From assembly GCA_009789175.1 (NCBI GenBank), contig CP046866.1:930001-994000 (forward strand): DNA of 64,000 bases. Direction: 5' to 3'. Numbering within the stretch: position 1 is the stretch's first letter; every line of letters starts with the position of its first letter. A model generated the notes under the pieces. The model worked only from the letters and a program-made list of their open reading frames with translations, did not search any database and was not told the DNA's origin. Below, one piece after another: positions 61,185-64,000 of this stretch. The position numbers and the translations under genes were made by a program. The stretch comes from Salinibaculum litoreum. Its GTDB lineage: Archaea > Halobacteriota > Halobacteria > Halobacteriales > Haloarculaceae.

Positions 61185-61655
61185 CTACTCCGGCGACAAT
61201 TTTGTCACCACGCTCTCGTCTGTCTCTTCGACGGCGACGAGTCCGTCGGCTTCGAGGTCTTCCAGCAGGTCACGGAGCCACTCCCTGCCGTAGGTGCCAT
61301 CGGGTGCGTAGTCTACGCGTACGCGCGGTCCGAGGTCGTCCAGTGTGAGCGGCCCGTGTTGCTGGAGCGTCCCGACGACCCGCCCACGGAACTGCCGACG
61401 GCTCCCCTCGAAGTCCGGTTGCTCGGGGACGTCCGGCGCGGTGAAATCACCCGTCTCGTAGGCGTGACACCAGCGCCGCCACGGACACTCGGCTGTGTCA
61501 CAGGCCGGCGTCCCCTCGCAGGCCACCCCGCCGAGTTCCATGAGAGCGTTGTTCCAGACTCGTGACTCGCCGTCGGGGAGCAACCGTGTCGCGGCCGACT
61601 CGAAGGCCGCGTCGTCGTCGGGAACGTCAAAGGCCCGGTGATAGGAGAAATCCAT
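61185..61655 (-). pseudogene. C-terminal fragment of an A/G-specific adenine glycosylase (MutY-like)
   Basis: 156 residues matching only the end of haloarchaeal MutY proteins. ESRVWNNALMELGGVACEGTPACDTAECPWRRWCHAY has the Fe-S ligands (Cys-x6-Cys-x4-Cys-x5-Cys), followed by the C-terminal recognition domain. The catalytic HhH-GPD half, with the essential Glu and Asp, is absent. Homology seems to stop near 61640, at HRAFDVPD where relatives read YRAFDVPD, and the sequence upstream turns AT-rich. It has an ATG and could in principle be translated, but a working glycosylase is unlikely. The 5' part is presumably beyond the inserted element. Confidence 0.8.
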
Positions 61656-61877
61656 TATACAGACCTCTTGTGTTGGTAAAACAATTGATACAAACCATCC
61701 AACTCTACTACTATCTGATTAGTTCGGCACTTCTAGGTCGAAGCACGCCAAGTGCGTGTAGTGCTAGTCGTAGAGGATGAAGACGTACAATCGGCTAAGG
61801 ACAACACATACCAGTCGAAGCTATAGTGCGCACGGATCTCTATTCCTTTTCCCCTACCGCTAATTCCTGCAGTGTCC
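61656..61877. other. gap between mutY fragment and integrase, candidate attachment region
   Basis: 222 bases without a gene, AT-rich at the left (runs such as TTGGTAAAACAATTGATAC). A small inverted repeat CACGC-CAAGT-GCGTG lies near 61744-61758. This is where the recombination site of the element should be, since it separates chromosomal and foreign sequence. I can see no direct repeat because the other end is outside the window. Confidence 0.4.
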
Positions 61878-62984
61878 TCAAATGTGGAATTTGTAGATGT
61901 CTCTCCGGAATTGGTCCTCGATTTTCTCGTATCGGGTGTGGATGTATGAGTCGATAGCTTCCTGCGTGGCATTGAGCTCACCACCACTTTGGATGTCTCC
62001 CCGGAGGTACTTGAGAAGATCTCGCTGCCACTTCTTATCGATACGAAACCAAGTGGTGAATCGGTGACGCCCGTAATGAGAGCTCACACCTCTGTACTGT
62101 TCTGTCGGTCCGTACTCGGGTCTGAAGTACTTCTTCCAGATGTCGTTGATGTTCGTATGGTCCATCTTCTTCCCGCCAGACTTCGACAAGAACAACCAAG
62201 GACGACCGTTATCTGGTCTGCAAAGCAAGTACTGGAGAAGCACTCGACGAAGTTCATCGTCAAGCGGGAGAACTCGGGGGCGCTCTGACTTGTTTCGATC
62301 ACGATCGTGGGGGATGTAGACCGCGTTCGGACGCCCATTCAGAGTTGGGTGGTTTCCGAGATCAGAATAATGATCCTGAAGTTCCGAGTTGGTAATATGG
62401 ATTTCACTGAGCTTGATATTCGATACTTCTGATGCTCGAAGCCCCAGCTTGAGTTGGATGAGGATCACTGCCCGATCCCGGATATGTTTCACTTCGGTCT
62501 CGATGAACTCCCTCAGTTCAACAAGCGGGATCGGGTATTGGTCTTTGGGTGGTTCCCCACTAAGATCGATTTTGTTTTTCGCCGCTTTGAACGGATTGAA
62601 GTCTTTAGGATGGGGAAATGCAGGTTCGACCTGGAAATATTCGTACGCCTGATCCAGAGATGATAGCTTCGCTGCGACGGTAGCACCGTTGTTATCTTGC
62701 TCGTCTAAGTAGTACTCAGCGAAGGCAGTCACATGTGATGTTGATGGGACTGCTGGGTGGCGGTCGTACTCTCCCCAGATGAAGTTACACCACTGCGTAA
62801 TTCGTCGTTCAATGGCAACTATGGTCTCGTCAACATAGCCTTTCGAATAGACAACGTCGTCTAGCCAGAGTTGAAACGGGTCTGAGTCTACTGTCTGGAA
62901 CTGTTCATTGTACTTGGCAAGCGGATCAGTTGTGCGATTGAAAGCCTCTGCAATCTCTTCGTGCCTCTCTTTGCTGTCGCTCAT
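61878..62984 (-). CDS. tyrosine recombinase/integrase
   Basis: 368 residues. Catalytic Arg183 (LKLGLRASEVSN), His303-x2-Arg306 (SSHYGRHRFTTW), and the nucleophile Tyr in YIHTRYEKI (Tyr347 or Tyr352). An N-terminal core-binding helical domain spans about 30-130. Catalyses site-specific integration and excision. The ATG at 62984 (MSDSKERHEEIAEAF) overlaps the upstream stop by four bases; the longer frame to 63116 is the shadow of the upstream gene. Last gene of the three and closest to the junction. Confidence 0.92.
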   Translation of the reverse strand: MSDSKERHEEIAEAFNRTTDPLAKYNEQFQTVDSDPFQLWLDDVVYSKGYVDETIVAIERRITQWCNFIWGEYDRHPAVPSTSHVTAFAEYYLDEQDNNGATVAAKLSSLDQAYEYFQVEPAFPHPKDFNPFKAAKNKIDLSGEPPKDQYPIPLVELREFIETEVKHIRDRAVILIQLKLGLRASEVSNIKLSEIHITNSELQDHYSDLGNHPTLNGRPNAVYIPHDRDRNKSERPRVLPLDDELRRVLLQYLLCRPDNGRPWLFLSKSGGKKMDHTNINDIWKKYFRPEYGPTEQYRGVSSHYGRHRFTTWFRIDKKWQRDLLKYLRGDIQSGGELNATQEAIDSYIHTRYEKIEDQFRRDIYKFHI

Positions 62985-63523
62985 TCGTTTCTCTCTGAGT
63001 ATTCTGGTTTGTAATCTGTCTGCCAGTACCACAACCGTCTGGTTATACCACCGCTGTGAGCCGCCATCAGAACAGGATTGTAGACGTGCGGGTAGTCTAC
63101 GTGGTGCACTAACCACTCAAAGAATGTTTTGAGGGGGGACAGGTGCTGGTAGTAGACTGTATTATCTGATCGCTCCGTGACTTTGATTGAGTATCCACCG
63201 TCCTTGATATGCTGAAGATACGACTCAATGTCATCTGGATACGGGAGAGCGTGGTGACGCCCTACTTCCTCTCCCATGTATTTTTTAAAACGATCACCAC
63301 AGGGATACCACGAATTCTCCTTTGTTGACTCCGCAAGATCGCCGTGCTTCTCTAGGTATGCGTTCCACGTATCTTCTTCTTGGAACTGAGATTTGAACGT
63401 GTTTAATCTGTAACGTGTCGGGACTTCTTCTATTGATTTATATACCCCAAGCCAATACTCGACATCTCGTCTACCGGGTGCCTCGTCAGATCGATCTGGA
63501 ACGCTTATGTCTGCACGTGGCAT
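62981..63523 (-). CDS. recombinase-associated protein with core-binding-like fold
   Basis: 180 residues. YWLGVYKSIEEVPTRYRLNTFKSQFQEEDTWNAYLEKHGDLAEST, then LPYPDDIESYLQHIKDGGYSIKVTERSDNTVYYQHLSPLKTFFEWLVHH. The second half has the spacing of an N-terminal SAM-like core-binding domain of tyrosine recombinases, but there is no catalytic domain. It could be an accessory DNA-binding factor. It overlaps the neighbours at both ends (one base upstream and four downstream), so its expression is tied to the integrase. Confidence 0.72.
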   Translation of the reverse strand: MPRADISVPDRSDEAPGRRDVEYWLGVYKSIEEVPTRYRLNTFKSQFQEEDTWNAYLEKHGDLAESTKENSWYPCGDRFKKYMGEEVGRHHALPYPDDIESYLQHIKDGGYSIKVTERSDNTVYYQHLSPLKTFFEWLVHHVDYPHVYNPVLMAAHSGGITRRLWYWQTDYKPEYSERNE

Positions 63524-63963
63524 TACGATTTGCCACCCCGATTGGTTGGATAGTACCGGTCATCGTCGAAGAGAAGTTCTTCGCCTTCTAGATCGTCCAG
63601 ATGAGCGGTTACTCGCTCAGGAACAGTCCGCATTACATGTCTGATTATCTCATCATACGGAGCACCAGGATTTGCCTTAACAAATTCCTTAATGGTCTGT
63701 CTTTCCCCATTATAGACGGCATCTTCTAGATCCTGGATGCGCTCTCGGGAACGATCGAGCTCTTGTTTCAGTTCGTCTCGTTGCTGTCGAAGCTCACGGT
63801 TCGTTTCATCCGGATTGGTTGAGGCGTCAAACTTCTTCAAGCCTGCTTCAACCATCGCCTCGATAAATTCTGATGTAGACATCCCGAACTCGTTAGCTTT
63901 GGCTGACCACCGATCGTACTGCTGATGTGTCGGATATGTTGCAGCGTGTTTGCTCTCAGCCAT
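63523..63963 (-). CDS. small protein with N-terminal MetJ/RHH-like helix and coiled coil
   Basis: 146 residues. HQQYDRWSAKANEFGMSTSEFIEAMVEAGLKKFD resembles RHH/relaxase-accessory proteins. A heptad-rich coiled coil follows (TNRELRQQRDELKQELDRSRERIQDLEDAVY), then a winged-helix-like end (GAPYDEIIRHVMRTVPERVTAHLDDLEGEELLFDDDRYY). First gene of the three; its stop shares one base with the next start codon. Possibly sequence-specific DNA binding in recombination or its control. The promoter would lie beyond 63963, at the edge of the window. Confidence 0.7.
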   Translation of the reverse strand: MAESKHAATYPTHQQYDRWSAKANEFGMSTSEFIEAMVEAGLKKFDASTNPDETNRELRQQRDELKQELDRSRERIQDLEDAVYNGERQTIKEFVKANPGAPYDEIIRHVMRTVPERVTAHLDDLEGEELLFDDDRYYPTNRGGKS

Positions 63964-64000
63964 AATTCCTTGGAGGGTTTGATTCGTTGTGAGAAGCTAT

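Follow-up and report, generated by a model that had tools for sequence, protein, structure and literature searches.

The nearest described kind of system is the bacterial SE/GInt element of Proteobacteria (IntA-Tfp-IntB-Srap; GinABCD; PMC10214605), where a non-catalytic recombinase-fold protein (Tfp/GinC) and a coiled-coil auxiliary (Srap/GinD) are encoded beside tyrosine recombinase genes (PMC10214605). RIT elements, also bacterial, have three catalytic recombinases; in RitA, two core-binding domains follow one another (PMC8138268). In haloarchaea, the SNJ2-type operon of pleolipoviruses groups small coiled-coil and DNA-binding-type genes with an integrase. Characterised archaeal integrases are said to need no cofactors in vitro (PMC8371274), a picture that would change if a recombinase were almost invariably passed on together with a copy of its DNA-binding half that lacks catalytic function.

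The locus analysed here, three genes (A, B and C) in a 64,000-nt stretch (the window; G000:C1:930001-994000) of a 3.7 Mb haloarchaeal genome, combines one recombinase with a bare core-binding partner and a ribbon-helix-helix (RHH)-winged-helix protein, and it is this combination, in archaea, that is new. SE/GInt elements differ in having two catalytic recombinases, a larger Tfp and no described RHH-winged-helix auxiliary; as one recombinase per operon, rather than two catalytic ones, was found across the loci inspected, A-B-C was rejected as a member of that class. Assignment to RIT elements was likewise rejected, the catalytic domain being confined to C, as opposed to three tandem catalytic recombinases, and the likeness of RitA to a fused B-C protein of another genome (G118) is probably an analogy of layout. 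The initial annotation had linked the operon to SNJ2, and this holds only for layout: in two SNJ2-type relatives (L260 in G336; L251 in G189) a coiled-coil-like gene of 112-114 aa overlaps the start of the integrase gene. The SNJ2-type integrase belongs to a different family, and its helpers are non-essential, often absent and do not include a core-binding-only protein. C is separate (BLASTP against the HHPV4 integrase, E 0.09; in the tree the HHPV4 integrase has a very long branch and falls outside the clade of C genes), and the A and B profiles gave no match in 30 SNJ2-type loci or in HHPV3/HHPV4.

Three overlapping genes

Features of the locus, in window positions, are:

63523..63963, minus strand: gene A, 146 aa; RHH-like N-terminus, helix of ~45 residues (coiled coil), winged-helix-like C-terminus
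62981..63523, minus strand: gene B, 180 aa; predicted core-binding (SAM-like) domain on its own, without catalytic domain
61878..62984, minus strand: gene C, 368 aa from ATG; predicted tyrosine recombinase, core-binding and catalytic domains
61641..61877, strand not assigned: putative attachment arm region on the element side, lying between C and mutY and containing TATAATGGATTTCTCCTAT
61659-61641: TATAATGGATTTCTCCTAT, arm conserved in four genera
61629..61640, minus strand: probable site of crossover, CACCGGGCCTTT, encoding H-R-A-F in mutY
61185..61640 (gene to 61655), minus strand: displaced 3′ half of host mutY (A/G-specific adenine glycosylase)

A and B overlap by 1 base (TAATG) and B and C by 4 bases (ATGA), and the ORF coordinates bear out the three overlapping minus-strand genes of the initial annotation. 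Its other structural claims, an element boundary at this position, a core-binding protein lacking the catalytic half (B) and a coiled coil flanked by two DNA-binding-like ends (A), agree with the identity of the gene adjoining C (61185-61655, the displaced mutY 3′ part), with hhalign comparison of B and C, and with Pfam matches and the structural model of A, respectively. A longer, 412-aa form of C could start from an upstream GTG, although this start is unnecessary. Gene overlaps of 1-4 bases are commonplace in haloarchaeal operons; the A-B-C order with near-zero spacing is, however, repeated across many families and genera, which points to more than chance. The G+C content drops to 49% across 62001-64000, compared with about 63% in the surroundings, consistent with foreign origin of the segment.

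C matches Phage_integrase (PF00589) above the Pfam cut-off (E 3.3e-11), as well as XerA/XerD/Cre profiles, and residues R183, K232, H303, R306 and Y347 are invariant in the alignment, as expected of what is predicted to be an intact member of the tyrosine recombinase superfamily. The C genes form a single clade (support 100/99; 63-row tree), and matches in phage and plasmid collections were to remote recombinases only.

B is a free-standing homolog of the core-binding domain of C. The Pfam match of B itself is weak (Phage_int_SAM_1, E 0.078) and two relatives match Phage_int_SAM_4, while a profile of 25 B proteins aligns to C residues 21-138, the core-binding domain (hhalign probability 98.5, E 2.4e-15), with no part aligned to the catalytic domain of C. 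The AlphaFold2 model of B is all-helical (pLDDT 83.6) and is matched best, in Foldseek, by core-binding domains of recombinases, all with E > 0.001; the best, the N-terminal domain of a Haloarcula marismortui integrase (3nrw), has probability 0.98 but E 0.41. Residues G26, P35, H90, L93, P96 and W165 are invariant. Conservation at 150-200 aa in many families rules out a broken recombinase pseudogene.

A is a DNA-binding-like protein composed of RHH, coiled coil and winged helix. Several members of its family have RHH_1, NikA-like and TraM plus HTH matches in Pfam, the NikA-like match of A being weak, and in the model two helix-turn units flank a long helix (53-97); Foldseek gave weak matches only, to proteins of the RHH and MarR/ArsR folds.

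Insertion into mutY and the associated island

The mutY remnant (991.2-991.6 kb of G000:C1) lies 112 kb from an intact, 309-aa mutY (G000:C1:1102966-1103895), the C-terminal half of which has 61% identity to the displaced remnant. The element thus lies in its target gene, with the remnant at one end and a gene with a restored 3′ end at the other. The ordinary mutY sequence at the site is VLYRAFDVPDDD, while the restored genes of G000, G148, G124 and G136 read F-[AS]EI[HR]N[AT]DDP (the same DNA is found in G100). Together these sequences indicate entry at the R-A-F codons with a substitute 3′ half supplied by the element, and the intact mutY is a chimaera of a host 5′ part and this element-supplied 3′ half, by which the gene is restored. 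On these comparisons A-B-C is placed as the module that integrates a mobile island of ~112 kb, at the edge of which it lies, inside mutY.

In G000, G100, G375 and G148 (where C is decayed), mutY remnants adjoin C genes of one subclade, and the element-side arm TATWATNNATTTCKCC is common to all four; the C subclade of this genome goes with insertion inside mutY. Conservation of the attP arm spans about 19 nt, and each of the three attP sites open to assembly has an imperfect inverted arm 19 nt away. Shuffled sequences gave an equally good inverted arm in 1, 12 and 76 of 5000 cases for the three sites, the last value (G148) being modest. Such arms were not seen at the host site, attB, a search for an exact att direct repeat yielded an imperfect core only, and no tRNA gene lies directly beside the trios.

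These arms also bear on the possibility that C is a recombinase-like mobilisation relaxase, with A as a NikA-type auxiliary and integration carried out by another enzyme. Recombinase-like relaxases (MobK, MpsA) reportedly exist and A has its weak NikA-like match, but in four genera one C subclade occurs next to displaced remnants of mutY, and the att arms there are conserved, which makes this explanation highly improbable.

The island carries BREX genes (BrxA-like, BrxC, PglX, PglZ and BrxL) at about G000:C1:1028990-1044000 (L045), beyond the window, and a type I restriction gene; the module appears to mobilise defence genes (BREX) in haloarchaea. A second tyrosine recombinase gene within the island (G000:C1:997520-998707; L004:12520-13707), the product of which has a weak C-terminal zinc-ribbon match, suggests that the island may be composite.

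The mutY genes of G124:C1 (L157) and G136:C14 (L158) have the element-type 3′ half with no trio detected alongside in the stretch examined, and are possibly former insertions. Other trios (L066 in G094, L048 in G031 and L062 in G095) adjoin, in turn, a MutS gene whose 3′ end overlaps C, a MutL gene and the gene of a SIS/glutamine amidotransferase protein, which are possible further insertion targets.

Distribution and linkage of A, B and C

A survey of the order (392 haloarchaeal genomes) with C as the sole query, in which B status was assigned by comparison with B matches in the same genomes, identified 49 full-length C genes. B lies directly 5′ of 48 of these (47 complete; 1 short, in G237) and the remaining one (G338) is preceded by a B fragment, while every C match lacking B (G148, G288, G365, G157 and G285) is truncated or broken. 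A is present upstream of C in 33 of the 49 and interrupted by a contig end in one; the rest have no A and are scattered over the C tree (6 changes; 63-row tree). In G118, B and C form a single 578-aa ORF with an A gene ahead. The 48/49 linkage, the presence of A in 33/49 and the fusion in G118 point to B as near-obligatory and A as facultative: B looks like an indispensable partner of C, and A, apparently lost several times, would be a frequent but dispensable one.

From the side of the small genes, B relatives were found in 23 of 146 genomes of the family, with C directly downstream at every intact B locus inspected. When 247 genomes sampled from the phylum were searched, all ten B matches fell inside Halobacteriales and none outside; B was not found in PLSDB plasmids, A was not found in the phage collection, and IMG/VR gave no confirmed relative. 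A scan of genome contigs gave one relative, in Halovenus rubra. The occurrence of small genes without the recombinase, which would have told against a joint machine, is largely limited to decayed copies in the case of B and the long form of A, although short relatives of A do occur beyond the trio.

Pairwise distances of B and C are correlated (r 0.68; 0/2000 permutations), as are those of A and C (r 0.72), compared with 0.79 for the two domains of C itself; the B-C correlation is owed partly to common ancestry.

Operon linkage and the lack of intact C without B could also mean regulation rather than recombination, and B as an MrpR-like recombinase-fold regulator is the main rival explanation. 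B (and A) would then be regulators, B repressing the operon from sites near att while C recombines alone. MrpR/YopR, a known recombinase-fold repressor of phage SPbeta (PMC10516654), is among the weak Foldseek matches of B, and characterised archaeal integrases act alone in vitro (PMC8371274). A repressor, however, needs neither near-perfect linkage nor fusion to the enzyme, and the B-C fusion of G118 speaks for the two acting together where recombination takes place; we consider the regulatory explanation unlikely.

The pattern of A and B also bears on whether both are dispensable helpers like Orf2/Orf3 of SNJ2, which would enhance or direct an integrase able to act by itself. Two small proteins of its operon boost IntSNJ2, which is active without them (PMC8371274), SNJ2-type relatives share a similar small-gene-then-integrase layout, and A, often missing, fits such a role. 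B, in contrast, is almost never absent from intact modules and, with neither A nor B profile finding a counterpart in the 30 SNJ2-type loci, this explanation appears rather improbable.

Proposed roles and the chromosomal A-type gene

The reading we favour, and regard as probable, is a three-component integrase, with B as a DNA-binding co-subunit that is obligatory but not catalytic, and A as a facultative enhancer. The three-part recombination module at an element edge proposed in the initial annotation is well supported by near-obligatory B, frequent A, the B-C fusion and the site found in mutY; A or B may also, as that annotation proposed for accessory factors, set direction or target choice. 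While linkage, homology, fusion and target come from comparison, we infer the activities of B and everything about the role of A. C would cut and join DNA, and B would grip DNA beside C, in contact with it, as the non-catalytic co-subunit. B may also extend the recognised half-site past the usual 11-13 bp, as suggested by the ~19-nt conservation of the attP arm. A would dimerise via its coil, bind arm DNA and stabilise or tune the complex; regulation of the operon may be a further function of A. Because its target site (mutY) is known and a fusion occurs in nature, A-B-C is a clean, testable system.

The A profile matches 380 of 392 genomes, mostly via the N-terminal part. In 20 of 20 genomes, picked from the list rather than at random (L134-L153), a short A-type gene lies directly upstream of a chromosomal Xer-like recombinase gene, indicating that the range of A-type proteins extends beyond the trio. 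The G000 pair, an RHH/winged-helix gene and an Xer-like recombinase gene, is at G000:C1:1201709-1203144 (L046), and a small RHH-like gene also precedes two further recombinase genes of this genome. The chromosomal pair is similar to the trio in having the A-type RHH/winged-helix gene directly 5′ of the recombinase, but B is lacking, the A-type protein is shorter and the recombinase belongs to a clade other than that of C. Neither this pair nor B was found described in the open-licence papers searched; the conserved pair hints that chromosome maintenance involves a partner so far overlooked.

The trio may derive from such an A-type/Xer-like pair plus a duplicated core-binding domain, although the tree does not show this descent. 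More tentatively, site recognition may be split with a separate, catalytically empty subunit, giving two core-binding domains per half-site, one from the catalytic subunit and one from the other, and in haloarchaea an RHH-winged-helix partner may, as a rule, assist Xer-like recombinases.

In L004 (8997-9263, just past the end of the window), L012, L013 and L022, a small gene 5′ of A shares a short motif (such as GVAIYLTADDLRRLGI); elsewhere, other small genes occupy the position upstream of A in trio loci.
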